Source: a virus. Taken from it: 43,126 bases of DNA. The stretch is from IMG/VR virus record IMGVR_UViG_3300043411_000733, positions 1-43,126 of that record. The stretch is one strand, 5' to 3'. Below, one piece after another: positions 2,601 to 42,438 of the stretch. The translations under genes were made by a program, and so were the position numbers. The notes below the pieces were generated by a model. It was not told the DNA's origin, did no database searches, and saw only the letters and a program-made list of their open reading frames with translations. The stretch's first letter is position 1. Each line of letters opens with the position of its first letter.

Positions 2601-2638
2601 AGCAAAAAGGCTAGTAAGATCAAGTCCTACTAGCCTTT
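2601..2638 (-). terminator. Rho-independent terminator of the minus-strand cassette
   Basis: A perfect 11-bp stem (AAAGGCTAGTA at 2606-2616 against TACTAGCCTTT at 2628-2638) encloses an 11-nt loop. Read on the minus strand the 3' arm ends in a run of five T, so it should stop transcripts coming from the 2670-3494 gene. On the plus strand an A-rich stretch follows, so it is not bidirectional. It lies 18 bp before the start of the next minus-strand gene and separates two units. Confidence 0.75.
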
Positions 2639-2669: not shown

Positions 2670-3494
2670 CTATTTTTCTATGTCTTTCTCTGTCGGTTCT
2701 CCAGTAAATTTATTAAATGCTGATAATGCGTTGGTAGCGGCAGCTAATGAAAAACCTGTTGATGAAGGCGGAACCTCTGTAACAGGAGGTTCTTGATTAG
2801 GTAATGTATCAGGAACATTTGAAGAAGAGGGAGGTGTAGGACGTTGACTAAATCCGACATCTTCAGGAAATTTAGGTGTTACTGTAGTTAATGGAGAGAA
2901 AAATTCGGAATCAGAATTGTTTGAATACGCTAACGATCTAAGTCCCATAATTTCTGAATGAACGGTGAATTCTGCATTTAATTGTAATTGAAATGCTTTT
3001 TCTGAACTATCAGTAGCTGAAAAGCTATTAAATGTACCTAGATAATAAAAACCATCAAAGTAAATCTGTATGATTCCTGATAGAATCACTTCTCCTTTAT
3101 CATCTACAATGGCTCCATTATTTTTGTAAAGTTCAAGCATGTCTAAGTAGCTGTCATAGGCCAGAGTCTGTCTTCTATATCCAGGTGTCCCACCACCTCC
3201 TGTGATTCCCGTTACCCCGTGATAGACTCGTACAAATCCACCTGTAGCCATATCAAACGATATTGTTTCAGCACCTTCCCCAAAATGAGCCTCAACAAAA
3301 CCTCCCAATGTTTGTTGTTTATCTATTATTTTAGAACAACTAATAGACATAGAGGTAGGATTAACATATAAAACAAGTTTATAATTTCTTAGTAAACTTG
3401 TTTTATAGTCTGGGCCTAAAATATCGAATATAACAGGTCTTCTACCTCTAGCTAAACTTTCTTCGTTTATACCAGAAAACGATCCTTTAATCAT
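2670..3494 (-). CDS. Small hub-like baseplate protein, paralog of the C-terminus of the M15-peptidase hub protein
   Basis: A 274-residue protein whose core (about residues 38-190) aligns with the C-terminal third of the 5801-7840 product. Shared landmarks in the same order are LYVNPTSMSIS / LLINPESLAIN, a G-rich stretch, ELYKNNGAI / LFYKNNGYI, YFDGFYYLGTFNSFS / EYDGWVYEGNMESFS and a closing strand-rich segment. This layout belongs to phage tail proteins of the hub or tube-adaptor type, so a structural role is likely. Residues about 205-245 are Pro/Ser-rich and probably flexible. The ATG overlaps the stop of the metallophosphoesterase gene (ATGA), and a terminator follows. A virion gene transcribed with a superoxide dismutase and a phosphoesterase is odd. 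Family assignment is by inspection; the exact baseplate position is unknown. Confidence 0.65.
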   Translation of the reverse strand: MIKGSFSGINEESLARGRRPVIFDILGPDYKTSLLRNYKLVLYVNPTSMSISCSKIIDKQQTLGGFVEAHFGEGAETISFDMATGGFVRVYHGVTGITGGGGTPGYRRQTLAYDSYLDMLELYKNNGAIVDDKGEVILSGIIQIYFDGFYYLGTFNSFSATDSSEKAFQLQLNAEFTVHSEIMGLRSLAYSNNSDSEFFSPLTTVTPKFPEDVGFSQRPTPPSSSNVPDTLPNQEPPVTEVPPSSTGFSLAAATNALSAFNKFTGEPTEKDIEK

Positions 3495-4279
3495 ACTAAT
3501 CTTACCTGATTCATATTTTTAACAATTTTTATAGGAGCCTCTGCATCCTTTTCATCAGGATATCCAAAAGGATTGCATAATATAAGAGTACCATTTAGTT
3601 TATAAATAAATTTGTTGTGGGTATGTCCATGAACCCATAAAGACGGAATTTTTCTCAGGATTATTTTTTCTTGGTCCGAACAAAAGAAATAATTTGATTG
3701 TGAGTTTCTAAATCTTTCTGGGATAGACTTAGGAGAACATGTATGATGGGTTATCACAATATCTCCCCTTTTACATTCACTTTCCAGTAAATTTATAAAA
3801 TCTTCATGGGATCTGTAAACCCATTTCTCAAGATCCTCAATATAATGAACGTCTGGCATACATACATGATTGTAAGTTCTAGCGTATTTAGAATCAGCAT
3901 ACCACATGGTTCCACCAATATAACGGTTCCCATCTAATTCTACAATTTCATTATCTAAAAATTTAAATGATGGACATCTTCTTTCAATATCTCTTAAAAT
4001 TCCTGTAATTGTAGCTTTATTACTGTGATAATAATCATGATTACCTGCAACATACAAAACATTTTTGTATCTAGGTATGATAAAATTTATAAGATAATTC
4101 ACATGGTCTGAATTAGAGATATTTCCTAAGTCACCTGCTATAATTAAAACTCCTTCAGGATCTCTCGTCGAATTTATATAGTGACTTAATTCCAACATTA
4201 GTTCATTGTCATCATATCTAAATTCAAGATGTGTATCTGATATACTATAAATGTTCGTTTCTTTATTGATAGCCGACAT
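3491..4279 (-). CDS. Calcineurin-like metallophosphoesterase
   Basis: A 262-residue protein with the full set of metallophosphoesterase motifs in order: SDTH (Asp15, His17), GDLGN (Asp50), GNHDYYH (Asn80, His81, Asp82), an ITHHTCSP segment near residue 178 and GHTHN near residue 218. These residues bind two divalent metals in the family and hydrolyse phosphomonoesters or diesters; the substrate cannot be told from sequence. The length is normal for a single-domain enzyme, and no signal peptide or membrane segment is seen, so it should be cytosolic. An AAGGA site precedes the ATG. It lies 10 bp after the superoxide dismutase gene and overlaps the next gene by ATGA, so all three are probably co-translated. 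Roles in nucleic acid, nucleotide or protein dephosphorylation are all possible. Confidence 0.9.
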   Translation of the reverse strand: MSAINKETNIYSISDTHLEFRYDDNELMLELSHYINSTRDPEGVLIIAGDLGNISNSDHVNYLINFIIPRYKNVLYVAGNHDYYHSNKATITGILRDIERRCPSFKFLDNEIVELDGNRYIGGTMWYADSKYARTYNHVCMPDVHYIEDLEKWVYRSHEDFINLLESECKRGDIVITHHTCSPKSIPERFRNSQSNYFFCSDQEKIILRKIPSLWVHGHTHNKFIYKLNGTLILCNPFGYPDEKDAEAPIKIVKNMNQVRLV

Positions 4280-4289
4280 ATAGATCCTT

Positions 4290-4895
4290 TTAAGTATATG
4301 AATTATATAAATTAGAACAGTAGTCCCAATTTACAATTTCTAAGCATTCTACGAGATATCTCTTTCTATCTGATTTATAGTCCAAATAATAACTATGCTC
4401 CCATAAATCTATTAATAAAATAGGCATAGTCCCATTAAGTTTTTTCCCATCTTGACCTTCAAAAGAATATAAAACAAGTTGCTTAATATGGATGTTGTAA
4501 CCAAGACCAATCCATCCAGATCCCCTAAGATTACTATTAAATTCAATAAATAATCTCTTAAAATCAGTGAATGATCCGAAGGTAGATTTTATTTCCTTAA
4601 ATAAGGAGCTATTAGGATCTGGTAAATATTTTTCCCAAGATCTAGGTGCTAACATATTCCAAAATAAACAATGATTCCTATGTCCAGCAACATTAAACAT
4701 CAGATCATTGTTTATTTTTTCTAGTTTGGCTCCTGTGTTTTCATAATAATATTGACATTTTAAATTATATAATGCTTTATTGGCTCCATCAACATAAGCC
4801 TGATGATGCTTTGTATGATGAAGCCACATAGTTTCTTGACTAATAAAAGGTTCTAATTCGTTGTAGTCATACGGCAATTCTGGAAGTTTGAACAT
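4290..4895 (-). CDS. sodA: Superoxide dismutase, Fe/Mn family (Mn-type signature)
   Basis: A 201-residue protein matching the Fe/Mn superoxide dismutase family from end to end, starting at the usual LPELPYDYNELEP. It should convert superoxide to hydrogen peroxide and oxygen in the cytosol, as a dimer or tetramer. The metal ligands are all present: His26 in LHHTKHHQAYV, His75 in GHRNHCLFW, and Asp163 and His167 in DLWEHSYYLDY. The outer-sphere residues His30 and Tyr34 are kept. The GHxNH segment and a Gln148-Asp pair resemble the Mn-type enzyme more than the Fe-type, so Mn or cambialistic use is likely. No leader peptide is visible. The gene lies between the Cys-rich gene and the metallophosphoesterase on one transcript, with a weak ribosome site. 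No frameshift or lost residue suggests decay. Confidence 0.93.
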   Translation of the reverse strand: MFKLPELPYDYNELEPFISQETMWLHHTKHHQAYVDGANKALYNLKCQYYYENTGAKLEKINNDLMFNVAGHRNHCLFWNMLAPRSWEKYLPDPNSSLFKEIKSTFGSFTDFKRLFIEFNSNLRGSGWIGLGYNIHIKQLVLYSFEGQDGKKLNGTMPILLIDLWEHSYYLDYKSDRKRYLVECLEIVNWDYCSNLYNSYT

Positions 4896-4913: not shown

Positions 4914-5768
4914 TTAATTTACAGGGTTTTTAGGAGGTCCAGCGTTAGGATTAAAAATCCCCAATTTCTTTTCTAATTTTTCCCTAACTTTTTTATTCCG
5001 CCATTTTGTTGTTTTAAAGAATTGATCTAACATTTTTGAACAGAATCTTTCGGGACTATCAAATTTATCCTTTAATTTTGCAACACACGCAGAGAATGGA
5101 TGATCTGGATCATCTTTTGTGATAGTATTATAAAATTTCTTAAAAGATTTTGCTGTCCACCCTTTTGGTAATTTTTTAAATCCTACAGGTTTTTTGACAG
5201 ATTTTTCAGCATCAGGTCCAGTATCTGCTGCTATCTTTACTAGACCTTCTTTACTAATTAAATAAATCCCAATGTTATTTTCATGTCTCTGTACCCAGAC
5301 AAAAAGGGTCGGACATTTACCTAAACAAAAATGAAAGTTGCTTCTATCTCCTTTATAAAAAAGCTCAATAGAGCATAGTAAATCACATATCTGCTCTTTA
5401 TCTATATTTTGACCAGAAAATAAACATACGAGTTCGTTTATTAATCTGGCAACATCAAAACAAATATTAGATAGTAAATTCTTTCTTTGATCTACTTGTC
5501 TAGAAATAACATCATATTCTGAAAGAATCCATTCAAAGTATCTGCATTTCTCTTTAGCCATATTAAAAAATGATGTTTCACAACAACCACACATTTCACA
5601 ATTGCACATTTCTGAATTACATTTACAAGTTGAACAGCACCCACAGAAAGAACAAAACTCACACGGATTACAATGACAAGTAGTACATTTTATATGGCAG
5701 CTATTAAATGTACCCAAAGTAGGTGTTTCACAACGACAGAAATAAGAACGACAATTACTGCACCACAT
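4914..5768 (-). CDS. Metallothionein-like Cys-rich domain fused to a phage-type C-terminal module
   Basis: A 284-residue protein with 20 cysteines in its first 63 residues, arranged as CxC, CxxC and CxCC pairs (for example Cys11/13, 31/33, 42/44/45, 48/50, 55/57, 60/62/63). Such density and spacing are those of metallothioneins, so binding of a metal cluster (Zn, Cu or Cd type) is a reasonable inference; repeated small zinc knuckles are the alternative. Residues about 70-190 form a mixed domain of unknown family. Residues about 198-258 contain KLPKGWTAKSFKKFYNTI, an HPFSACVAKL segment, a PERFC segment and TTKWR, which from memory resembles a small module in other phage and bacterial proteins. 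It is the first gene of the minus-strand cassette, 18 bp before the superoxide dismutase gene and 32 bp from the divergent hub gene. Confidence 0.85.
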   Translation of the reverse strand: MWCSNCRSYFCRCETPTLGTFNSCHIKCTTCHCNPCEFCSFCGCCSTCKCNSEMCNCEMCGCCETSFFNMAKEKCRYFEWILSEYDVISRQVDQRKNLLSNICFDVARLINELVCLFSGQNIDKEQICDLLCSIELFYKGDRSNFHFCLGKCPTLFVWVQRHENNIGIYLISKEGLVKIAADTGPDAEKSVKKPVGFKKLPKGWTAKSFKKFYNTITKDDPDHPFSACVAKLKDKFDSPERFCSKMLDQFFKTTKWRNKKVREKLEKKLGIFNPNAGPPKNPVN

Positions 5769-5800
5769 ACTTATATACCTTACTGTGAAGAGACTTTATT

Positions 5801-7840
5801 ATGGCTATCAAATTAAAACCTGTTACAGATCCTACCAAAATATATCCAGCCAGAGTCTATGATAAGCTCGCTGTCGGATTTGATACCAAGGTAAATTGGG
5901 AGACTCAATCAACAATCCCTGTTGAAAATTCTGATAAGACATTGAGAAGTCTATCTCCATTTATTATTAGAGCATTAATACCAGAATTTTATCAAGAATA
6001 CTTTGATAAACAATCAGCCATAAAAAAATCGGTTAGCTCTAATAACGGAACTATCACAGAAGAAACATTATTTGATATAAATGACCTGAATAATGCAACT
6101 ACAAGCTTTCAAGAAATGTTGAAAGCTCAGTTCCTATATGCCATTCAATATGCTACTTTTAATTTTCAAGATATTTCAGCAGTACCTTTAGATCCACAAC
6201 AAGTCGAATATGTACCTACCTCATTTAAAGATCCCGGTGTTGATAATCCGCAGTTAACTAAAAGATTTAAATTAAGCGACTTCAAATCTAAACTTCCACC
6301 AACACAAATTCCTCCAGAAATATATGATCCTATAAATCCTAATGGTAAGCCTACAGGATTTCCCGTTCGTGCAAACCTAAAAATAGCTGCCTCACAAGTT
6401 GAAATCATTCTAGATACTATCGAAAAAGCATTAGGGAAGCCTGTTAATGTAACAATAATAAGTGGATGGAGATCTATAGAACATAACGCACGTACAGGTG
6501 CTAATGATCCATTCGGAAACCATGCTCAAGGAAAAGCAATTGATTTCTCTGTAAAACAGTTATCAATTCCAGAACTTGCTGCTGTAGTAGACATACTAAG
6601 ATCCAACGGTGGAATTATCAAAGGGGGTTTAGGAATATATAAGAGTTTTATACATTATGACATCAGAGGGCAGAATGATAACTGGATTGGAGAAAGTCCA
6701 GATGATCAAGAACACGAAGGAAAATTATCGCAATATGTTCAGCAAGTGCAATATAAAAAAGGGTTTACAGAAGAAGAATTGCTAAGAACAGCAAAAGAAG
6801 CAGGAAAAGGTGTTGATTTTCCAACTTATAGATCAACAGGTACTTCAGAAAATAATGTAAATATGGATGATGCAGCTAGAAGCTCTGATTCTTATAGTAA
6901 TGCAGCACAAGCAAGAAAGGCAAATGCCAGTATAGCAACAAGTAATTTTCTTAATGCCTTCAAAGCTCTCATAGGTGTAGAGCAGAGTGTTACAGATCAG
7001 GGTTTTGATTTTTCTAAGATGACACCTCAAGAGACTTTTCAAGGAGATAGACTTACTGCCCTTGATATACTTTATCAACTAAGAGCAATACAAGAAATAC
7101 CTCCATTGGTTCTCTTAATAAATCCAGAGAGTTTAGCTATAAACTATACTAAGGTATCCCAATTTACAGAAAGAGGAAGATATGGATATATTTATCATAC
7201 TTGGGGTGATGAACTGCCTAAAATGTCAGTATCTGGAAAAATAGGTGCATTTGTTACGGGTAATAGTAATGGTGAACCTGGACCTAATGGAGTACAGTTT
7301 GCTTCAAAAAGAAATTCGGCAGCATTTCAAAATCTAATGAATTTACTTTTGTTTTATAAGAACAATGGGTATATTTATAATAGAACAGAGGCAAGAACTC
7401 CATCGACATTACATTCAGTGGGTTTGTTAGCTATTGAATATGATGGATGGGTATATGAAGGTAATATGGAAAGTTTTTCGTATTCATATTCTGAGGAGAC
7501 ACAGAACGGGGGAATGGAATTTAGCTTTGAATTTTCAATAGAGAAAATAATTCCTCCAGTTGCCGATTTCAACATAACCCCACCTACAGGTTTTAATGTA
7601 CCAGCCGTACCGACTGACACATCTGAGAATGTAGATGGAGGATTTTTTGATACACTTGGACAGGGAGCTTTGGATGCTCTGCTAGGTGTCGGTGAAGGTG
7701 TTTTACAAGAAAATTCGATACGTGAAACTATAAATACAAGTCAACAAATGTGGAATGCATTGAATGGTGAAATAACACCATCCAATACAGGCTCTGAGAC
7801 TATATTAGCTAGAAATAGTGCAGGCTTCATAAGAACTTAA
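5801..7840 (+). CDS. Baseplate hub-associated protein with M15-type peptidoglycan peptidase domain
   Basis: A 679-residue protein in three parts. Residues about 1-185 have no family I can name. Residues about 190-300 form a peptidase M15 (VanY/DD-carboxypeptidase-like) domain: SGWRSIEHNARTG is followed by NHAQGKAIDF with zinc ligands His241 and Asp248, then FIHYDIRG with the third ligand His285. The family cleaves peptide cross-links of peptidoglycan, so this is probably a virion-borne lysin acting during injection. Residues about 430-600 are the hub-like domain shared with the 2670-3494 gene, containing LLINPESLAIN and LFYKNNGYI. The C-terminal tail is low in motifs. It begins the plus-strand structural block, 24 bp before the large hub gene, with a GAAGAG-type ribosome site. 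A fused wall-degrading domain is common in tail-tip proteins. Confidence 0.85.
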   Translation: MAIKLKPVTDPTKIYPARVYDKLAVGFDTKVNWETQSTIPVENSDKTLRSLSPFIIRALIPEFYQEYFDKQSAIKKSVSSNNGTITEETLFDINDLNNATTSFQEMLKAQFLYAIQYATFNFQDISAVPLDPQQVEYVPTSFKDPGVDNPQLTKRFKLSDFKSKLPPTQIPPEIYDPINPNGKPTGFPVRANLKIAASQVEIILDTIEKALGKPVNVTIISGWRSIEHNARTGANDPFGNHAQGKAIDFSVKQLSIPELAAVVDILRSNGGIIKGGLGIYKSFIHYDIRGQNDNWIGESPDDQEHEGKLSQYVQQVQYKKGFTEEELLRTAKEAGKGVDFPTYRSTGTSENNVNMDDAARSSDSYSNAAQARKANASIATSNFLNAFKALIGVEQSVTDQGFDFSKMTPQETFQGDRLTALDILYQLRAIQEIPPLVLLINPESLAINYTKVSQFTERGRYGYIYHTWGDELPKMSVSGKIGAFVTGNSNGEPGPNGVQFASKRNSAAFQNLMNLLLFYKNNGYIYNRTEARTPSTLHSVGLLAIEYDGWVYEGNMESFSYSYSEETQNGGMEFSFEFSIEKIIPPVADFNITPPTGFNVPAVPTDTSENVDGGFFDTLGQGALDALLGVGEGVLQENSIRETINTSQQMWNALNGEITPSNTGSETILARNSAGFIRT

Positions 7841-7864: not shown

Positions 7865-10800
7865 ATGAGCGACTTAAATAAATTAAGGCCGACAGCAGGA
7901 ACGTGGACAGTAGATAAGAAGAAGACCATACAATATGCACCTGACTGTCTTGTATATATAAATGGTGATACAAGTTTACCTGGATGTTCTAAGTGTGGTG
8001 GACGTATAGATATACAAGAATTCGTGACCCAAGTCTCTGTAGATTTAGGATTAGATCCTTCTTCTACATCTTGTAGTCTCACTTTATCTGTACCAACACA
8101 CCACATACACACATTAGTATATAGTGGAGAATGTATTATAATTCCAGGATTGGAATTACATATCTATATGAAAGGATTTTTCCCTGTTAAGGGATTATTT
8201 GATGGGTCACAAAATTATGGTGATGGTGAGGATTTAACAGGATTTCCACATACTCCTATGTACCATGTTTTTCATGGAGTGGTTATATCTTCCGATATTT
8301 CGATTTCTGGAGGTATGCAAAGTATCAGTGTAAGTGGTGCAGGTATGTTGCACTTTTGGCAATATCACCAGATATCTACAAGTGCATCACAATTTGGTGC
8401 AAGACCTCAAGGATCAAATCTTAAAACAAACCTAGTAGGTCATAATTTTAATGGCCGAACACCCTATGCCATTGCTTATACGTTATTTCATGATACGGCA
8501 GGTGCTGCTGGTGGTGTTGGTTTTGCTTTATCAGCACAGACAAATCAAACAGCTAAATCAACAGTAACTAATAAATCCCTATTTTCGATGAACTTAGATT
8601 ATTGGAGAGAACGCTTTTCTACTAGAATGTTTAATTTAAGAATGCATGGTGCTAGTGGAGAACTATTCAACTCTGCACAAACAGCCTTTTTAGCTAGACT
8701 CTCTAGTGGTAATTTAGAAAGAATAGTTAAAGAAGCTATACTTTTAGGTAAACAACAAAATAGAAATGCAAAGAAGTCAGATATCTTTTCCACAGCTTTA
8801 CAATTAGGAATTGTGTCTGAAACATATGACCCTCAAACAGGGGAACTTAGATATACAACTGGATTGACATTTACAGATACACAGTCGGTTTCTAATAATG
8901 GAATAACAGAGCAGTTTAACCTCGGATCTATTCAAGCATACGTTCAAAGTATTTCCCAATATGGTGAAGTAAATTTTTGGGAATCTACATATGAAACTAA
9001 AATGGATATGATCCAGCAGTTATGCGAAAAAACTGGATTTGAATTTTATCAAGACGCTGATGGTGATATGGTTTTTAAACCACCATTATATAATATGGAT
9101 ACATCGGGATCAAGAATATACAGATTAGAGGATGAAGATTTAATAGATATAAGTTTTTCTATTAAAGAACCAGAAGCAACTTATGTTACGATGAAAGGTT
9201 CACAATTCAAGAATCTTAAGGACACTGGAACAGAAGGGGAATTTGGTACAAGAGGTCAATATATAGATTATAAATTAGTAGCACAATTTGGTTGGAGAGA
9301 AGGATCGTTAGAAACAGAATTCTTTTCGAACCCAAGATCGATGTTTTATGCCTGCGTAAATCGTCTCGATATTTTAAATGCTCAAACATATTCAGCATCA
9401 GCAACGATACCTCTTCGTGTAGAAATGCGTCCTGGTTATCCCGTATATATTCCTTATTTAGATTCATTTTATTATGTAACAAATCTAAGCCATAGTTTTT
9501 CATTTGGTAGTGGATGTACGACTTCGTTAGAATTAGTGGCCAGAAGAAAGCCGTTTTTCCCTCCATGTAACCCTGATAAAGAAGGTGTGGAGGCTATTGC
9601 CCTTGAAAATACATATTATCCAAAGAAAGGAATGCAGGTTATAGATAACGCAGGAAGACCTAGAGTTGTTGGTTTACCTAATACAGTTTTAGCATTAGAT
9701 CCAGAAGCTATTAATCCGTTATTTTTTAGCGTTGGATCAGATCTAACGGATGTAACAAATCCTATTGTAGTAAGAAACCTTGTAGAAATGGCAAAACAGT
9801 ATGGGATACTAAGAGTCGAAGAAGGAGGTACAAATCAAGATGGTCCATTTATTTTAACAATATCTGAAAAAGAAGATGCTCAGATTGACCCTAATGGAGT
9901 AGGGATAAAGAATAGTGATGTTGTTAATGAAACGACAACTAATGAATTATCTACAAAAACATTAAAATTTAGTTTCGCTAGCCTCACAACATCTGCCCAA
10001 CAATATTCTAAATTACAAACCACAGAACTTATTACATCAAATTCTACGACTACGAAAGAAAATTACCTTAATGATATTAAGGAATTAACAGAGGTAATTA
10101 TCCCAAATCTTGAATTAGATGTAGTGAGTCTTCAAGATGACTTAAAGTTAATACCTCAAACAGATACAGAGGCAAGACAGATTATAACAGATAGAATAAA
10201 TCAAGCTCTTAATGATATTAAAGAATCTCAAGAAAGAATAAAACAGATTAACAAGAATATCACAGATCTTGCGGAGCAAGTTAATAGTGAATTAGGGAGT
10301 GAAGGGGCTGTAGATGTTGCGAGTGCTGAATTAATCAGGAGCTTAATAGATCAAGTCAGTAATCAGTTTAAAGAAAGAATGGGGGGAAGCCCGTCTATCT
10401 CAAAGACTGCTTCATATTTAGATCTCTTGTCGGATAAAAAAGCATCATTTGCTTCAAATTCCACCCCTGGACATTTTAGATATTTTTCATGCAGTCATCC
10501 AAATCCAAAATATCAAGGGATGCAGACAATAAAAGCAAGTGCTGCTACAGGTCCAGCAGGGGGCGGTGATATCCAAAGATTACCAAACGTTAAAGAGGTT
10601 AGTGGTTTTCTAAGATATCCTACTAAATTAGATCCATCAGGAAATTTACCAGAAGCGGAAATAGGACCAGTGCAAGTCGTACACGGTTTAAGAGTATTAA
10701 CAGGATCTAAAACGGATACTGTCTTATCTACTAATGATATACAGACCCTATCATTCTCAAAACATACAGTAGAAAATTCATCTGGTGAAACGTATTACAG

Positions 10801-11986
10801 ATATGGGCAGATATTTTCTGGAGTAAATAATGAATATGATGCTTTCGTATTGGAGTTCTTTGAAAAAGAAAATGCTGGTATAACATCTAGTATAGAATAT
10901 TATTACAAGCCTATATGGAATAAATTAGTGAATAGGCCAACTATTAAATCAGAAGCAACTTCACGAGATATAGTTATAGACGCTTCATTTTTTGCTTTTC
11001 CTACTCAGATTACATTAGGAGATTTAACTGTACCGACTACCTCCTTAATACCAGATTTACAAGAACAGATTTATGATTTGCAAACATCTATTAATGCATT
11101 TAAATCTACATTAAGACTGATAGCTAGAATTTTAAGTTCCGAATTGATAAATAGGGTCAACAAATATTTAAATAATAAATGGCTTGAATTGGAATCCGCT
11201 AATCCCACATCAATCGAAAAGTCAAATTCTCAGAGAGTAGTTGAAGAACAGGTATTTTCCGAATTAGTAAAATATCTAACTTATGGAAAAGTCACTTTTG
11301 GTGTTGGTTCTAATGTAAAAATAGAAGTTCCAAAAGAACAGACCTTCTATACTCCTATTTTTCCTGTATCAGATGACAAGGGATATGAAGTTTACGGAAC
11401 ATATAAATATGGAAGAGGTTTATCTATCATAGGTGAGTCATCTATTAATGATGTAAACTTTGCAGATCCATTTCAATTTGCAGATCCAAAGACAGTAGAA
11501 GCTTTTACTAAAACTTTAAAGGGAGAAACTTCTAAAAACATAGTAGCTACCGATGGTGAGGTTAATCAGGTAGATTTAGTAAAAAGACCACTTACTAAAG
11601 AAGAAACAAATCTTATAGAGTCTATAAAGATGAATCCTGAAACTCCAGCTTCTTTATTATCATACATTGAAAGTACAACTCAAACAGGAGTTGGATTATC
11701 AAATTGGGTAAAAAGCGCTAGAGAATTTACAGGAAAGATAATAGCTACAAATGTACCTGTTAATTTATCTCAATTAAGACCTTTAACTAACCTAAGTGTT
11801 TGTGAATGTAAGATCGAACAGGCTAATGTTGTCTTAGAATCTCTAGCTACTGAAGGATTTGTTGAAATTCTACCTCCAGATGTTGATAGCCTTACTCAAA
11901 ATGTTGCTACGGATATTTCTATCAAGGGTGAAATCTGGGAGAAGAATAGAGATATACTTTCTGGTAAAAATATACTTCCATCTTAG
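7865..11986 (+). CDS. Large baseplate hub protein (gp27/gpD-like)
   Basis: A 1373-residue protein. Residues about 1-600 resemble late-control-D/gp27-like hub proteins: an early beta-rich domain, then TKMDMIQQLCEKTGFEFY near residue 378, a strand segment VFKPPLYNMD and a YRLEDEDLIDISFS stretch, an order typical of tail hubs that sit on the tube and hold the spike. Residues about 730-810 are strongly helical with heptad-like Leu/Ile spacing, probably a coiled coil. The last 500 residues have no family I recognise and make the protein far longer than T4 gp27. Odd cysteine pairs are seen at 41/44 (CSKC) and 1313/1315 (CEC). Its neighbours, the peptidase-hub gene upstream and the spike gene downstream, support the assignment. 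The ribosome site is weak. Confidence 0.8.
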   Translation: MSDLNKLRPTAGTWTVDKKKTIQYAPDCLVYINGDTSLPGCSKCGGRIDIQEFVTQVSVDLGLDPSSTSCSLTLSVPTHHIHTLVYSGECIIIPGLELHIYMKGFFPVKGLFDGSQNYGDGEDLTGFPHTPMYHVFHGVVISSDISISGGMQSISVSGAGMLHFWQYHQISTSASQFGARPQGSNLKTNLVGHNFNGRTPYAIAYTLFHDTAGAAGGVGFALSAQTNQTAKSTVTNKSLFSMNLDYWRERFSTRMFNLRMHGASGELFNSAQTAFLARLSSGNLERIVKEAILLGKQQNRNAKKSDIFSTALQLGIVSETYDPQTGELRYTTGLTFTDTQSVSNNGITEQFNLGSIQAYVQSISQYGEVNFWESTYETKMDMIQQLCEKTGFEFYQDADGDMVFKPPLYNMDTSGSRIYRLEDEDLIDISFSIKEPEATYVTMKGSQFKNLKDTGTEGEFGTRGQYIDYKLVAQFGWREGSLETEFFSNPRSMFYACVNRLDILNAQTYSASATIPLRVEMRPGYPVYIPYLDSFYYVTNLSHSFSFGSGCTTSLELVARRKPFFPPCNPDKEGVEAIALENTYYPKKGMQVIDNAGRPRVVGLPNTVLALDPEAINPLFFSVGSDLTDVTNPIVVRNLVEMAKQYGILRVEEGGTNQDGPFILTISEKEDAQIDPNGVGIKNSDVVNETTTNELSTKTLKFSFASLTTSAQQYSKLQTTELITSNSTTTKENYLNDIKELTEVIIPNLELDVVSLQDDLKLIPQTDTEARQIITDRINQALNDIKESQERIKQINKNITDLAEQVNSELGSEGAVDVASAELIRSLIDQVSNQFKERMGGSPSISKTASYLDLLSDKKASFASNSTPGHFRYFSCSHPNPKYQGMQTIKASAATGPAGGGDIQRLPNVKEVSGFLRYPTKLDPSGNLPEAEIGPVQVVHGLRVLTGSKTDTVLSTNDIQTLSFSKHTVENSSGETYYRYGQIFSGVNNEYDAFVLEFFEKENAGITSSIEYYYKPIWNKLVNRPTIKSEATSRDIVIDASFFAFPTQITLGDLTVPTTSLIPDLQEQIYDLQTSINAFKSTLRLIARILSSELINRVNKYLNNKWLELESANPTSIEKSNSQRVVEEQVFSELVKYLTYGKVTFGVGSNVKIEVPKEQTFYTPIFPVSDDKGYEVYGTYKYGRGLSIIGESSINDVNFADPFQFADPKTVEAFTKTLKGETSKNIVATDGEVNQVDLVKRPLTKEETNLIESIKMNPETPASLLSYIESTTQTGVGLSNWVKSAREFTGKIIATNVPVNLSQLRPLTNLSVCECKIEQANVVLESLATEGFVEILPPDVDSLTQNVATDISIKGEIWEKNRDILSGKNILPS

Positions 11987-31836: not shown

Positions 31837-34800
31837 ATGGCTATCACACCAAAATTTTTGAATTTATCAGGATCTTACTCTGAAACGACCTATATAACTA
31901 CAAATCAGTCGGCCATATTTTTAACAGGTATTATAGATGAAAGCACTATAGACTTGCAGATTTCCGTAAGGAACGGCCCATTTTCATCTGATAGTGATTT
32001 AGTTTATTTTGAGGGGACCACTTTCTATATTCCTAATCCCTCTGTATATCCTGATGGTCTAGATTTAACTTTAGGCAATAATTTAATAAAATTAAGAGCC
32101 ATTGATACTTTTGGGTCCATAAGTGCTAATGCAATTGTATCTGTTCGATATTTACAGACATCTGATGTAAATGAGTTTTATGGGCCTCCTACTAGAATTA
32201 TATTAGAGAGATTGGATGGAAATGTAAAAATATCAGTAAGAGGTACGGACGATCCAAACATACTAGGCTATAATTTTTATTGTTCTACTAATCCTGGTGG
32301 TGGACCACAGGGATATTCCCGTATAAATCTAACTCCTGTTAACGCCTATGTAACTTCAACAGAGGAGACTTCTCTAGGAAGCTTTGTCTCTGATGTTAAT
32401 TTAAAGTTAAGTCCTTCTGGTCAAGAATTAGCAGCCGATCCATTGTTTTATCAATTTACAGGAAGTCAACAAGATTCAGAAGGTACTGTATTACAAGCTG
32501 ATTTTAATGAGATTTTGGAAATACCAGAAAATGTAAGAACTTTACGTTCTACTATACAGGTGAATCAGGTAGAGACAGTAAGAGACTTCTCTTTTATCCA
32601 CGATAGAAATTCTAATCCAAAATCAACAAATCCTGCCATTCCTAATGGTGATTTTGCTTCAACTCCTGATACAGAGCCTCTTTATTATGTAGTTACAACC
32701 GTATTTATTGATGTTTCTTCTGGGGCTGTTGTTGAATCATCTAACTCGGAAGAAGTCTCTGGTAATCCTATCCGTGTTACTGCGGCTATCGGTTCTTTTC
32801 CTATTGTAACTTCACAACAAATCGATCAGGATCTCACTTTATCGATACATAGACGAAGAACAGACATTGATGTCCAACCTGGATCTTATCAAAGAGACAC
32901 CTTTATTTCTCCAGCTTCTGCTGCCTTAACGAGAACTAATTTTCTTATTGACTTTGCTCACTTGGCTTCGTCTTTTGCTACTTTATTGTCTATAGATGAT
33001 CCACAGAGACAGGGTGTATCAGTTCCTGTTGCACAGTCTAAATATAAGCTAGGTTTGAAGCAAGCCTTATTTTTAACTGAAGATCCGTCTGTTCAAGAGG
33101 TTATTGACCAAGCATTTGAAAAGTTAGCATCAAATTATGGTGTATTTAGAAAAGCTGGGGAGAAATCTAGGGGTGAAGTAACTTTCTTTACTACACGTAT
33201 ACCTACAAGTAGTATCACAATACCTATTGGTACAGTTGTTAGTGGTGCAGGTATTAGATTTAGAACGACTTCAAATGCCCAAATAACTTTATCCAATATT
33301 GCTTCTTTTTATAATCCATTTACGGGAAGATACTCTGTAAAGGCGTCTATTCAGTCCGAAAGTCCAGGATTAGGAACTGTACTAAGTAAAGACCAGATAA
33401 AAACAGTAGTCACTGGACCCCCCGGTATTTCTGTAGTAAATGAAAATGCTACATTTGGAGGAAAGGATTTACAGAGCAACTTAGATTTAGCTTTGGAAGC
33501 ACAAAATAAAATATCATCTGTAGATTCTGGTACTTACCAAGGCATTAGAAAAAACACTGTTGCTATTCCAGGAGTTATTCAAACGATTATTGTCGGTCCA
33601 GGTGATGACTTAATGTATAGGGATATTGATCCTGATACAGGAAGACATCTTGGAGGAAAAGTAGATGTATGGGTAAGAGGATCTAGATCAGGTAATGTCT
33701 CAGATATTTTTGCGTTCTCCTTTAAAATAGCAAGAAATATTGTATTTGAAGTCTATGGTGATCCTACAAATTTAGAGTTTATAGCTATAGACCCCTTATT
33801 ATCAGAAGAAAATCCTATTATAGAACTTCTAAATTATCCTGATTTGGGATTTTCATTGAGAAATGATACGAGGGGTGTTTTATTTGATTTGACTTCTGTT
33901 ACTGTCATTGATTTTGATAAAATAAAATTATCTCCTACAGTAGTGCAGCCTCCATATGCTATTACTGATATCATACGTGGAGATTATAGATACAGAACCA
34001 GTAATAGATATGTATTCCCAAGACAACCTGTTAACTATCTTGTGTCACTTATCGGTACTGTAACAGGGACCGTTACTCCTTCCGTTTATAATATTAAAAG
34101 ATCAGATTCTCCTCTTAGACTCGGAAGATCTACATCTGCTGGTGATTATTTAGAATTAATAGACCCTCTAAGTGCTGGTGTCGTCATACCTTCTTCTAAT
34201 CTAATATCTGTAACAAATGAGGTTGTGGTTATTGTTGGTGAGTATCCAGAGTATTTAAACAATTTAGGGATAAATCCAGTATCTATAAAAGTATGGGACT
34301 CTACAAGAACCGTATTATATAATGGACCCTATGTAAATAACTCCGACTATCTAATCGTAGATGATAATGGTTCTGTTGGTATTCAGAGGGTCGCAACTGG
34401 TCAAATAACAAGTGGGCAAACTCTTTCTGTTGACTACATGCACGATGAAAATTTCAGTGTAACATATAATATAGATTTTCTAGTAAGTGCCGTACAAGAG
34501 AATTTAAATAATAATAGACATTTATCGGCTGATATAGTTACTAAACAGACAGTTAGAAATTCGGTTGATATTTCTGGTTCTGTTGTGTTGAAAAAAGGAA
34601 TCAGTCCATCTTCTGTAGATTCCCAAATTCGTGCAACTCTTATAAACCATGTAGAAAATCTAGGATTAAATAGATCTCTTAGATTGTCTGACGTTATTAG
34701 AATTATTGATCAGACGGTAGGCGTGTCATACGTCATCATACCTTCATTTAAAATGGTTAGAGCGTCTGGATCTTTAATCGTTGGTGAGTTCGTTGAAAAT

Positions 34801-35277
34801 GACGGTATAAAAATGGATTCTTTGAGTTCGTCTATTAACAATGTTTTCCTTTTACAGGATTCGTTGGATAACTATACGACAGATGGTGGTGGTCCTATTA
34901 ATACTTACAGGTATGTGCTCTTAAATGATGAAGAGACAGAATTACTGTCAACAAGACCTGATACATTATCAAATGCTGCTAAGAGATCTTTTATTATCGG
35001 AGTACAGGGATTGGCTATTTTGGGATATTCTGACGACCAGACTTTAATATCTCAGGGATTTTTAACACCTGCTGAAATAGGTGAAGAACGAAAAAGACTA
35101 ACTGCTAATCATATCTTAGTTTCGTTAGCGAATAATGATTCTTTGGATAACTATAGTGTTCAAACATCCTATATAACCACAACGAAAAATGTGGGTGCAG
35201 ATGATTTATTAGCTACTATAGTCGAAAATTTTTCCTTAAGGTCTATAGTATTAACTTATGATGAGGACAGGGTATAA
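31837..35277 (+). CDS. Baseplate wedge protein, J-like (gp6/gp47 family)
   Basis: An 1146-residue protein with an AAAGGT site. Residues about 1-110 form an Ig-like strand domain and about 120-200 an FN3-like one (PPTRIILERLDGNVKISVRG); both are extensions beyond the usual J protein. From about residue 400 the J-like core appears: YKLGLKQALFLTEDPSVQEV, EVTFFTTRIPTSSITIPIGT, GAGIRFRTTSNAQIT, SPGLGTVLSKDQI and GPPGISVVNENATFGGKD, the conserved order in which phage baseplate J proteins present strands and a Gly/Pro turn. These proteins dimerise and join wedges around the hub. Later parts have an added beta domain and a helical segment (LINHVENLGLNRSLRLSDVI) typical of the family end. It is 2 bp before the I-like gene, and the upstream gp25-like gene fits the operon. 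Confidence 0.85.
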   Translation: MAITPKFLNLSGSYSETTYITTNQSAIFLTGIIDESTIDLQISVRNGPFSSDSDLVYFEGTTFYIPNPSVYPDGLDLTLGNNLIKLRAIDTFGSISANAIVSVRYLQTSDVNEFYGPPTRIILERLDGNVKISVRGTDDPNILGYNFYCSTNPGGGPQGYSRINLTPVNAYVTSTEETSLGSFVSDVNLKLSPSGQELAADPLFYQFTGSQQDSEGTVLQADFNEILEIPENVRTLRSTIQVNQVETVRDFSFIHDRNSNPKSTNPAIPNGDFASTPDTEPLYYVVTTVFIDVSSGAVVESSNSEEVSGNPIRVTAAIGSFPIVTSQQIDQDLTLSIHRRRTDIDVQPGSYQRDTFISPASAALTRTNFLIDFAHLASSFATLLSIDDPQRQGVSVPVAQSKYKLGLKQALFLTEDPSVQEVIDQAFEKLASNYGVFRKAGEKSRGEVTFFTTRIPTSSITIPIGTVVSGAGIRFRTTSNAQITLSNIASFYNPFTGRYSVKASIQSESPGLGTVLSKDQIKTVVTGPPGISVVNENATFGGKDLQSNLDLALEAQNKISSVDSGTYQGIRKNTVAIPGVIQTIIVGPGDDLMYRDIDPDTGRHLGGKVDVWVRGSRSGNVSDIFAFSFKIARNIVFEVYGDPTNLEFIAIDPLLSEENPIIELLNYPDLGFSLRNDTRGVLFDLTSVTVIDFDKIKLSPTVVQPPYAITDIIRGDYRYRTSNRYVFPRQPVNYLVSLIGTVTGTVTPSVYNIKRSDSPLRLGRSTSAGDYLELIDPLSAGVVIPSSNLISVTNEVVVIVGEYPEYLNNLGINPVSIKVWDSTRTVLYNGPYVNNSDYLIVDDNGSVGIQRVATGQITSGQTLSVDYMHDENFSVTYNIDFLVSAVQENLNNNRHLSADIVTKQTVRNSVDISGSVVLKKGISPSSVDSQIRATLINHVENLGLNRSLRLSDVIRIIDQTVGVSYVIIPSFKMVRASGSLIVGEFVENDGIKMDSLSSSINNVFLLQDSLDNYTTDGGGPINTYRYVLLNDEETELLSTRPDTLSNAAKRSFIIGVQGLAILGYSDDQTLISQGFLTPAEIGEERKRLTANHILVSLANNDSLDNYSVQTSYITTTKNVGADDLLATIVENFSLRSIVLTYDEDRV

Positions 35278-39509: not shown

Positions 39510-40400
39510 ATGAATCTAAAGAGGTCAATAAAGAGGGTAGCAAGTTTTATTCGTATTTCTTCTATGGATTTTGAACGTCTTGCAAAAGAGTACGAGAGAG
39601 ATCCTGAAAATCCCAACATGAGATTGGAATATATAAGAGAGTGTTTAAGAAGAGGGGAAGAACCTATTGTTTACTCACGTTGGCTTAAAGCTACACATGG
39701 ATTAACCATTAATCTTGCAGGGAAACAAATAGATATTAGAGGTAACTTGGAGGATTTAGGTTGGCTAAATGGGGTATATTCACAAGCAGAGGGTATAGTG
39801 TTTTCAGCAAATAAACTGAAGTCACTTAAGGGGGTAGATGTATCTTCTTTCCCAAATCTATCTAATCTTATATTTATGTTTCAGGATCTGAATGATCTAA
39901 CAGGTCTATCAGGAATAAATTCCCCAAATCTTCAAGTATTTACAGCGAATGGATGCAAATTAAAGAGTATAGACGGAATAGAAGGATTAAATACAATGAA
40001 TTTGCGAGATATAACACTTAATAGTAATGATATTAAAGATTTAAAGCCTCTGAATGGCTTAAATATCAAAACTTTATCGATAGCTTCAAATGAAAATGTA
40101 AATCTAGATAGTATAAAAAATCTAAGACTGCCAAGTCTACGCGCATTAGATTTGGGTAATACAGGAATCACAAATATAAGACATCTGGAGGGTATGGACT
40201 TTCCACAGTTAGGGTGGTTAGGTTTGCAAAAAAATAACATTAGTTCTCTTGACGAACTCCCCCTCATTCAACGTTTATTCCCTAGACTACATACTCTTTG
40301 GTTAAATGATAACCCTGTAAAGGTAACAAAAAGAACGCAGACTAAATTCCCATTTGTCCAGTTGGGACAATGGACATGGGTGGGAATGGACAAGGCTTGA
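39510..40400 (+). CDS. Leucine-rich repeat protein with amphipathic leader and N-terminal module (paralog 1)
   Basis: A 296-residue protein in three parts. Residues 1-17 contain the leader KRSIKRVASFIRIS, a basic amphipathic helix shared almost unchanged by the next three genes. Residues about 19-60 hold the module (FERLAKEYERDPENPNMRLE, then YIRECLRRGEEP), similar in layout to the repeat-companion domain (TIGR02996) found beside repeats in some bacteria. Residues about 70-285 are degenerate leucine-rich repeats of 22-25 residues with N-x-L and L-x-x-L phrases (LRDITLNSNDIKDLKPL). Such repeats bind proteins. It follows the fibre gene by 42 bp. An internal ATG after the leader has no ribosome site, so the leader is translated. 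The role in the phage is unknown; a partner-binding virion, injected or host-takeover protein is possible. Confidence 0.88.
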   Translation: MNLKRSIKRVASFIRISSMDFERLAKEYERDPENPNMRLEYIRECLRRGEEPIVYSRWLKATHGLTINLAGKQIDIRGNLEDLGWLNGVYSQAEGIVFSANKLKSLKGVDVSSFPNLSNLIFMFQDLNDLTGLSGINSPNLQVFTANGCKLKSIDGIEGLNTMNLRDITLNSNDIKDLKPLNGLNIKTLSIASNENVNLDSIKNLRLPSLRALDLGNTGITNIRHLEGMDFPQLGWLGLQKNNISSLDELPLIQRLFPRLHTLWLNDNPVKVTKRTQTKFPFVQLGQWTWVGMDKA

Positions 40401-40450
40401 GAGATAGAGCCTGTCATTTTATAGGTTCATCCTATTTAACTGGTTTCGTG

Positions 40451-40470
40451 ATTAAAGATAGAGGTGTAAG
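40451..40470 (+). promoter_or_regulatory. Conserved ribosome-site leader, paralog 2
   Basis: ATTAAAGATAGAGGTGTAAG directly before the ATG at 40471. It matches the leader of paralog 1 in the GAGGYGTAAG core and that of paralog 3 in the TTAAA-AGATA upstream part. Confidence 0.7.
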
Positions 40471-41127
40471 ATGAATCTGAAAATATCAATAAAAAGAGTG
40501 GCTAGCTTTCTAAGGGTAGGAGTAGATTTTGAAAGAATAAAGAGTAGGTATCAGGAGAATCCAGAGGATGTTTTATTGAGAAGTGATTACATTAGACAAT
40601 GTTTAAGGAGAAATGAAAATCCAGAGATTTATATTAAGTGGGTTAAAGACAGATATAATCTAGATATAGATCTAGATGCTAATAAATGGGATTTCTCGTC
40701 TAAATTGAAAATGGATCTTAATTTTCTTTCTGGTGTGTATGCTCCTAATCTAGAAGATTTAGATTTAGGTGGTAATTGGATTAGTTCATTGGAAGGATTA
40801 GATGGATTCAACGCTCCTAACCTAAACTTTTTAAATTTATCTGATAATAGAATCGGGTCATTGGAAGGTTTATCAGGATTGACTGCTCCTGCTCTACTAA
40901 CATTATATTTATCTGATAATAAGATCAGTTCCTTGAGAGGATTATCAGGATTAAATGCTCCTGATCTCCGTTTATTAGAGTTAGATAAAAATAATATCAA
41001 GTCATTGGAAGGATTACAAGGATGGAATACTCATAATCTCGACGAATTAGTGCTATATTCTAATCCAATAGCTATAGATATGCCTTATGAAGATAGGAAA
41101 AGATTCCCATTTATAGTTAGTAACTAG
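40471..41127 (+). CDS. Leucine-rich repeat protein with leader and N-terminal module (paralog 2)
   Basis: A 218-residue protein. Residues 1-16 are the leader (KISIKRVASFLRVG), residues about 18-58 the module (FERIKSRYQENPEDVLLRSD, then YIRQCLRRNENP). Residues about 90-195 hold four near-identical 24-residue leucine-rich repeats of the form APxLxxLxLxxNxIxSLxGLSG and a partial fifth (NTHNLDELVLYSNPI). The DNA repeats are in exact 72-nt register, so they arose by recent tandem duplication. It is the shortest intact LRR member. It lies 70 bp after paralog 1 and 67 bp before paralog 3. No signal peptide: the leader is basic and amphipathic rather than uniformly hydrophobic. The binding partner is unknown. 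Confidence 0.88.
   Translation: MNLKISIKRVASFLRVGVDFERIKSRYQENPEDVLLRSDYIRQCLRRNENPEIYIKWVKDRYNLDIDLDANKWDFSSKLKMDLNFLSGVYAPNLEDLDLGGNWISSLEGLDGFNAPNLNFLNLSDNRIGSLEGLSGLTAPALLTLYLSDNKISSLRGLSGLNAPDLRLLELDKNNIKSLEGLQGWNTHNLDELVLYSNPIAIDMPYEDRKRFPFIVSN
40741..41028 (+). repeat. Four tandem 72-bp LRR-coding repeats
   Basis: The phrase GCTCCT that begins each repeat recurs at 40741, 40813, 40885 and 40957, exactly 72 bases apart, and the sequence between is strongly similar (for example GGATTATCAGGATT and TTATCTGATAATA). Each unit encodes 24 residues of one leucine-rich repeat. Confidence 0.9.
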
Positions 41128-41179
41128 AAATATACGTATTATATAGATCGCTTGTCTTGCATAAATTAAACGTTAAAAG

Positions 41180-41194
41180 ATATAGAGTTATAAG
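41180..41194 (+). promoter_or_regulatory. Conserved ribosome-site leader, paralog 3
   Basis: ATATAGAGTTATAAG before the ATG at 41195. It keeps the GAG and TAAG of the leaders of paralogs 1 and 2 but has TTA where they have GYG, making a weaker ribosome site. Confidence 0.6.
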
Positions 41195-42091
41195 ATGACA
41201 CTAAAAAGATCAATAAATAGATCAATAAAAAGAGTGGCTAGTTTTATTAGAATATCAATGGATTTCGAACGTATTGAAATGATGTACAGGGAAAATCCAG
41301 AAGACCTTGATTTAAGAAAGGCATACTTTAGAGAATGTTTAAGGAGAAATGAAGAACCTACTATCTACTTGGATTGGGTTAAAAAAGCATACGGTATTGA
41401 TTTAGATCTTAAAAGTCAATATTTGAATCTAGAGGGGAAAGGACTATCAGATTTAAAATTTTTACAGGATCTTTATCTTCCTAATTTAGAAATGTTAGTA
41501 TTACATTCTAATCAGATAAGATCCTTGGATGGATTATCTGGACTGAATGCCCCAAATCTGTTATCTCTAAATTTGGACAGTAATCAAATAACTTCACTAG
41601 AAGGACTATCGAAATTTATTGCTCCTAAGTTAGCGATGTTATCGTTTGTAAAAAATAGTCTGACTTCATTAGAAGGATTATCTGAATTTAAGGCTCCTAG
41701 CCTATTAGAACTATACTTTGGAAATAATAAGATAAAGTCACTTAAAGGATTATCAGGATTTAAAGCGCCTAAATTAGCGAGATTAGAATTAAACGATAAT
41801 TATATAGATAGTCTTTATGACTTAAAGAACTTAAAATCTTCAATAATTAATTTAAATTTAGACACTAATAAGATAGAATCCTTAGATGATATGCCAAGGA
41901 TGCCAAAACTATTTAGACTGTTCTTATCTAATAATAGCTTAGAATCATTAGATGGATTGGAACAAGTCAAATCTACTGTCTTACTAGAAGTGAGGGTGGA
42001 AGGGAATGCCTTAGATCCAACAAAACTGGTAAAATTTTATAGAAAATATCCACAATTTCGTAGCATTGTTGAGGGGTCAACTTTAATATGA
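41195..42091 (+). CDS. Leucine-rich repeat protein with leader and N-terminal module (paralog 3)
   Basis: A 298-residue protein. The leader is extended to KRSINRSIKRVASFIRIS because a 12-base unit (AGATCAATAAAT/A) is duplicated at 41207-41230. Residues about 22-62 are the module (FERIEMMYRENPEDLDLRKA, then YFRECLRRNEEP). Residues about 90-285 contain about eight leucine-rich repeats, the first five in exact 72-nt register and the later ones more diverged (LARLELNDNYIDSLYDL, LFRLFLSNNSLESLDGL). It is the longest member and its stop overlaps the start of paralog 4 (ATGA). The leader, the module and the LRR units evolve at different rates, the leader being the most constant. Function unknown; a protein-binding role is inferred from the repeats. 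Confidence 0.88.
   Translation: MTLKRSINRSIKRVASFIRISMDFERIEMMYRENPEDLDLRKAYFRECLRRNEEPTIYLDWVKKAYGIDLDLKSQYLNLEGKGLSDLKFLQDLYLPNLEMLVLHSNQIRSLDGLSGLNAPNLLSLNLDSNQITSLEGLSKFIAPKLAMLSFVKNSLTSLEGLSEFKAPSLLELYFGNNKIKSLKGLSGFKAPKLARLELNDNYIDSLYDLKNLKSSIINLNLDTNKIESLDDMPRMPKLFRLFLSNNSLESLDGLEQVKSTVLLEVRVEGNALDPTKLVKFYRKYPQFRSIVEGSTLI
41477..41836 (+). repeat. Five tandem 72-bp LRR-coding repeats
   Basis: Equivalent hexamers (CTTCCT, GCCCCA, GCTCCT, GCTCCT, GCGCCT) start at 41477, 41549, 41621, 41693 and 41765, each 72 bases apart. The units resemble those of paralog 2 in sequence and register, but the copy number differs. Confidence 0.85.
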
Positions 42092-42438
42092 CTATCAAAA
42101 GATCAATAAAAAGAGTAGCAAGTTTTCTCCGTATTTCAATGGATACGGATGCACGCCTCGACAGGCTTGAAATTCTATCTAAAACCGATGAGGATGCTAG
42201 AATTGAGTATTTTAGAGAATTAGAACGAAGAGGAAAATTAACTGATTACTTAAATGATCTGAGAAAAGAAAGAGATGACAAAATATTGAAATCTTTTAAT
42301 TCTCTAAATGTAAAAGATCCAGAAGGACTTTTTGAGAATCTATTAGCTCCTTTTAGTTTCCTATTTGTAATTAACGGAAAAGCATTTTCTGATATAAATA
42401 AATTTGAGAAAGACACTAGACTTAATAGTCACTGCTAA
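42088..42438 (+). CDS. Paralog 4: leader and N-terminal module without LRR
   Basis: A 116-residue protein. It begins with the same leader (KRSIKRVASFLRIS), followed by a diverged module (RLDRLEILSKTDEDARIEYF, then RELERRGKL). After residue about 55 there is a short body with a Lys-rich helix and a hydrophobic segment (LFENLLAPFSFLFVINGK), but no leucine-rich repeat. It may be a truncated remnant or a deliberate short form. Its ATG overlaps the stop of paralog 3 (ATGA), with GAGGGG ahead as ribosome site, so it is translated in step with it. A hairpin 46 bp downstream closes the set. It shows that the leader and module can exist without the repeats. Confidence 0.82.
   Translation: MTIKRSIKRVASFLRISMDTDARLDRLEILSKTDEDARIEYFRELERRGKLTDYLNDLRKERDDKILKSFNSLNVKDPEGLFENLLAPFSFLFVINGKAFSDINKFEKDTRLNSHC

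Follow-up and report, generated by a model that had tools for sequence, protein, structure and literature searches.

A metallothionein-like cysteine-dense domain joined to a conserved phage module in a jumbo-phage fragment

Can a phage protein carry a metallothionein, and what would such a protein do beside a superoxide dismutase (SOD)? The question is raised by P0001, a Cys-rich protein of 284 aa encoded on the minus strand at 4914..5768 of a 43,126-base viral record (the window, meaning the whole stretch of DNA analysed), which is a fragment. The first-pass annotation had described a fused metallothionein in a phage and considered it new. The density, the fusion and the phage origin hold; membership of the metallothionein family is not supported, since no profile matches and the likeness to human MT2A is compositional. 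The newness was overstated, given that SOD is annotated in cultured jumbo phages and that Cys-rich appendages recur in other jumbo-phage proteins.

The P0001 gene and its cysteine-dense head

P0001 is the first gene of its operon and was delimited by ORF calling, translation, Cys count, codon positions and a start check. Its reading frame begins with an ATG at 5768, ends with a stop at 4914 and runs unbroken from the Cys-rich part into the conserved C-terminal domain. A Shine-Dalgarno-like AAGG lies 9 nt upstream of this ATG, no such sequence precedes the alternative start (M70), and the third-position GC (0.20) matches that of the neighbouring genes. Whole-protein relatives were identified neither in viral contigs nor in phage records, and against 23 related records the C-terminal module was matched and nothing else.

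The head comprises residues 1-63 (5580..5768, minus strand) and contains 2 His and 20 Cys, the Cys number of the first-pass annotation being exact when counted in the translation. The Cys positions are 3, 6, 11, 13, 24, 28, 31, 33, 36, 39, 42, 44, 45, 48, 50, 55, 57, 60, 62 and 63: four Cys (3, 6, 11 and 13), a 10-residue gap and 16 Cys across residues 24-63. Metallothioneins have a very high Cys content (about 15-33%) in CxC, CxxC and CC motifs; the head resembles them in content and motifs, with 32% Cys, six CxC, seven CxxC and two CC, so that the metallothionein-like density claimed earlier was borne out. Metallothioneins are small stand-alone proteins, whereas the head is a domain of a 284-aa one. 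It also contains six aromatic residues, unusual in classical metallothioneins. The remaining 24 called genes of the window encode 82 Cys in 13,372 residues (0.61%), none near the density of the head; at this background the binomial probability of at least 20 Cys in 63 residues is ~6e-29. Residues 64-284 of P0001 present nine further Cys (4%).

The spacing of the head is unlike that of a random Cys-rich string, because, compared with shuffled versions of itself, the head contains more CxxC pairs (7 vs 2.9, P=0.016) and fewer adjacent CC (2 vs 6.1, P=0.014). From C24 to C63 successive Cys are never separated by a gap of more than 4 residues, and therefore there is no loop space for separate zinc ribbons or treble clefs; a shared cluster would be the natural geometry. 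AlphaFold2 gives the head no secondary structure (pLDDT about 30). Such an unfolded model would be compatible with an apo-metallothionein, a low pLDDT saying nothing positive on metal binding.

The structure prediction and profile search proposed in the first-pass annotation thus returned no fold for the head and matched it to neither a metallothionein nor a zinc-finger family. No metallothionein match was identified in Pfam, NCBIfam, PHROG or PDB; Pfam and NCBIfam gave none for the whole of P0001 and Pfam none for the head alone at E up to 10, results to which the HMMER bias filters may contribute. The profile searches with P0001 likewise gave no match to ordinary zinc-finger families; a confident match of this kind had been named beforehand as counting against a metallothionein-like domain. 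A PDB sequence search with the head retrieved chance matches only, and its alignment to human MT2A scored 76 against a mean of 74 for composition-matched shuffles (P=0.41). DNA patterns of the exact Cys spacing, run on viral and genome collections, retrieved only low-complexity Cys runs and the window itself among the matches listed. Relatives of the head were found neither by sequence search nor, among the matches listed, by Cys-spacing pattern. Judged by its sequence, the head should be described as a metallothionein-like domain of obscure ancestry and should not be filed as a metallothionein.

The C-terminal module and Cys-rich appendages in other phages

The head is followed by a middle region (residues 64-194; 5187..5579, minus strand) with seven Cys, for which AlphaFold2 predicts, with low to moderate confidence, three helices followed by four beta strands. 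No relatives of this region were found, and it has no significant Pfam match. Residues 195-272 (4953..5186, minus strand) form a conserved phage module of four helices, identified by profile scans, alignment and AlphaFold2. The module had been noticed earlier as a C-terminal KGWT..ACVAKL..ERFC..TTKWR segment, and the profile scans and the alignment established it as a true conserved domain.

The module family, GWT-GAFC-WR, is defined in the present analysis and has the consensus LPKGWTxxSxKKF..C..(P/G)..FC..D..WR. Over ~65 aa P0001 presents, in register, P-x-GW(T)-x2-S, C, (F)C, D and WR, and it matches the module profile, in which it is included, at E 1e-31. Two profile-guided scans identified 22 and 76 viral loci, and about 47 distinct proteins bearing the module were gathered by pattern. 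Six residues are invariant across 51 aligned sequences: P201, G203, W204, S208, C228 and C243. The proteins with the module measure between about 90 and over 800 aa and carry it at either end. In the libraries searched the module is unnamed, with no Pfam, PHROG or PDB match. AlphaFold2 predicts a confident four-helix fold (pLDDT about 94 for the core in the full protein, mean 86.5 for the module alone), and Foldseek found no match at E<=0.001 with either the full P0001 model or the module alone. The occurrence of the module on many proteins, a portal among them, suggests a role in placing or docking.

A second conserved element, also unnamed and bearing one CxxC pair, repeatedly precedes the module in jumbo-phage proteins (L039, L046, L073, L081, L087, L094, L095, L098 and L126); it consists of the segment CPxCA(E/D/N/T)(K/R)M followed by an I..(V/I)..S..F-like stretch.

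Cys-rich appendages were identified on other phage proteins, either module proteins or their neighbours. L095, a module protein from an 82 kb viral contig, has its own Cys-rich head (starting MACENQNCQCGSECKCGGECSCGRP) with 7 Cys in 22 residues, and its matches to Pfam metallothioneins are weak and sub-threshold (E 0.016-0.085). The relative of L095, encoded on a contig of 437 kb and sharing 51% identity across residues 26-143, lacks the Cys-rich head. Cys-rich tails are found in L088 (CNCGCGKC), in L044 (CQQGYHPCQHGLPCECGGGCGK, cluster CECGGGCGK) and in a module-less protein of L086 (CQNGGPCQCGGQCGCGK, cluster CQCGGQCGCGK); L030 contains a short cluster, CACGKPTCTCC. The same lead-in, GSPLMLQPDYGHGDAAVP, stands before the tails of L044 and L086, which makes the tail look like a mobile cassette on otherwise different jumbo-phage proteins. 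Such appendages are regarded as recurrent add-ons because the L095 head is missing in its relative and the tails occur in related jumbo phages. At least 5 Cys in 25 residues are present in 4 of about 48 module proteins (L095 counted) and in 9 of 315 control ORFs, an enrichment that is suggestive, not strong. A Pfam metallothionein search of the related phage records gave no match, and neither did the controls.

The operon and its jumbo-phage context

The order of genes on the minus strand is P0001, a Mn/Fe superoxide dismutase, a calcineurin-like phosphoesterase, a tail-tube-like protein and a terminator-like hairpin. The SOD (201 aa; 4290..4895, minus strand) starts 18 nt after P0001 and contains both Pfam domains (PF00081, 1e-26; PF02777, 4e-26), which makes the SOD neighbour of the first-pass annotation real. 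Alignments to solved SODs in the PDB show the His/His/Asp/His metal ligands kept and the Gln typical of Mn enzymes. The metallophosphoesterase (262 aa; 3491..4279, minus strand; PF00149, 3e-10; phrog_1649, 3.5e-44) follows after 10 nt and is overlapped by 4 nt by the tail-tube/baseplate-like gene (2670..3494, minus strand). The protein of the latter is kept in all 20 related jumbo-phage loci and has no Pfam or PHROG match; its tail-tube label is drawn from genomic position. The hairpin (2606..2638, minus strand) has a 14-pair stem and a T run and resembles an intrinsic terminator; it is supported by its position after the last gene and not by its count (1 found vs 1.3 expected by chance in the region). 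A divergent gap of 32 nt (5769..5800) separates this operon from the plus-strand baseplate/M15 gene at 5801, and any operon promoter must lie in this gap or inside the divergent gene. From their packing, P0001, SOD, phosphoesterase and tail gene are apparently on one transcript.

The tail-tube-like gene and the next baseplate genes are on one strand and in direct succession in every related locus (20 of 20), and no SOD was identified in the 21 related records searched, several of them fragments. On these grounds the tail gene is taken to be inverted in the window, with three cargo genes beside it. The tail-tube-like protein looks paralogous to the C-terminal half of the M15 baseplate protein (5801-7840, plus strand), the two cross-matching in most relatives; their genes are on opposite strands in the window and co-directional in relatives. 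The M15-type peptidase domain of the latter protein (residues 202-287; PF08291, E 1e-9) is unaligned in relatives.

The genes of the window form a contractile-tail baseplate region akin to that of jumbo phages. The window is identified as a 43 kb jumbo-phage fragment by its baseplate proteins, whose matches include contigs as long as 485 kb. A 1,373-aa protein (7865-11986) has relatives at 20 viral loci in contigs of up to 435 kb, and a baseplate protein (31837-35277) is 39% identical over its full length to one of a 485 kb uncultured phage genome. Terminase and sheath profiles matched none of the module-bearing contigs, and for this reason their kinship was judged by baseplate proteins of the window itself. 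Of the two tested, one or both have homologues on the contigs of L044, L086, L088 and the relative of L095. Neither matched the contigs of L095 and L030, whose kinship is therefore less certain.

Four consecutive plus-strand proteins (39510-42438) present a common N-terminal tag, K-R-S-I-K-R-V-A-S-F-(I/L)-R, followed in three of them by leucine-rich repeats. RVA..(Y/F)L-type motifs are also found in jumbo-phage module proteins, and these and the tag are perhaps a common processing or packaging tag. The N-termini of three consecutive minus-strand genes (610-2588) are alike (MSDRIKKLALALAEEPDN..., MSDIDRLANQLILNKDS... and MVTDSTEHLLNLAQKLVLNPKDS...) and possibly related to it.

Possible roles and known counterparts

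The reading to which we give about an even chance (roughly 0.5) is that the head would bind several metals as a polynuclear thiolate domain, that the module would place the protein and that P0001 would serve with the SOD as a metal and thiol buffer. In its reduced state the head would bind several ions of thiophilic metals (Zn, Cd or Cu(I)) as a polynuclear cluster, the first four Cys possibly making one separate site. The four-helix module would be a jumbo-phage adaptor used on many proteins, and probably puts P0001 in a phage structure, either the virion or an infection compartment. The likeliest use of the protein would be to buffer metal and thiols alongside the SOD, against metal and oxidant stress in the infected cell or in the particle. 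Metal binding by bacterial metallothioneins occurs in clusters, and the scavenging of reactive oxygen that is also ascribed to metallothioneins (PMC7387436) suits an operon with SOD. The one observation that points to a joint action of P0001 and the SOD is the adjacency of their genes. The main reading has against it the absence of a metallothionein profile match, the purely compositional likeness to human MT2A, the six aromatic residues of the head, the failure to find an orthologue and the modest enrichment of Cys clusters on module proteins.

Other readings were weighed against this one. The CxxC pairs might instead form a zinc-ribbon-like array, holding mononuclear zinc for the recognition of nucleic acids or proteins and not for storage. 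The seven pairs (against 3 in human MT2A), the aromatic residues and the first four Cys (CxxC-x4-CxC), which could make one mononuclear site, speak for it; with no zinc-finger profile matched and no loops between pairs past residue 24, we regard it as unlikely. The main structural rival is a disulfide-rich domain, where the head would oxidise after lysis or in the particle, cross-link to itself or to tail or head parts and stabilise the virion, with the module as anchor. This is consistent with the tail gene in the same cluster, with the two invariant Cys of the module and with its use as the C-terminal tail of a portal in Haloarcula tailed virus 3. However, the bacterial cytoplasm is reducing, adjacent CC and CxC pairs this dense fit poorly with a defined disulfide fold and AlphaFold2 predicts no fold for the head, which leaves cross-linking rather unlikely.

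A thiol redox buffer or radical sink acting with the SOD, metal binding being incidental, would account for the identity of the next gene. Adjacency is its one argument, however, and the annotated regions examined in cultured SOD-encoding jumbo phages contain no obvious Cys-rich partner; we consider it improbable. That P0001 is a non-functional low-complexity expansion or a misannotated reading frame is very improbable indeed: no orthologue was found, the Cys-rich part is of low complexity and there is another frame that is nearly open, but the unbroken frame into the module, the Shine-Dalgarno-like start, the third-position GC and the non-random spacing all argue against it. Taken by sequence, the head would be best read as a polynuclear metal-thiolate cluster or a thiol redox sink.

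A wider proposal, which we hold tentatively and think doubtful, is that jumbo phages repeatedly graft metallothionein-like domains onto the adaptor module, yielding metal and oxidant buffers for virions or compartments, here in one stress operon with SOD. The literature searched contained no paper on a phage-encoded metallothionein. Should the head of P0001 prove to bind metal, then on that literature it would be the first metallothionein-like domain reported from a phage, and giant phages would possess an operon dedicated to managing metals and oxidants. Dozens of jumbo-phage proteins contain the adaptor module, which has neither a name nor a solved structure and offers a useful handle on protein sorting in these phages.

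Animal metallothioneins such as human MT2A share with the head 20 Cys in about 61-63 residues and the CxC, CxxC and CC motifs. MT2A differs in being stand-alone, in lacking aromatics and in having more CxC and CxxxC and fewer CxxC, whereas the head belongs to a phage protein of 284 aa. Bacterial metallothioneins (SmtA/BmtA type; Pseudomonas PflQ2MT, PMC7387436) resemble the head in combining Cys with His, the metal and reactive-oxygen roles being theirs; they differ in being small folded proteins with about nine Cys and a Cys9His cluster, while the head has no profile match. Among phage proteins, L095 has the same arrangement of a metallothionein-like N-terminal head and the same C-terminal module, with fewer Cys and with a CPPCAERM segment in place of the middle region of P0001. 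The portal of Haloarcula tailed virus 3 carries the same module at its C-terminus (identity to module members reaching 50% over 44 aa), where it forms the portal tail and is accompanied by no Cys-rich head. Phage-encoded superoxide dismutase is already known: Mn/Fe SOD is annotated, as in the window, in the Pseudomonas jumbo phages MIJ3, PA5oct and Callisto and in Vibrio phage 2.275. The neighbourhoods of these SODs present no obvious Cys-rich partner in the regions examined and contain chaperone, folate or topoisomerase genes, whereas the SOD of the window is accompanied by Cys-rich and tail genes.
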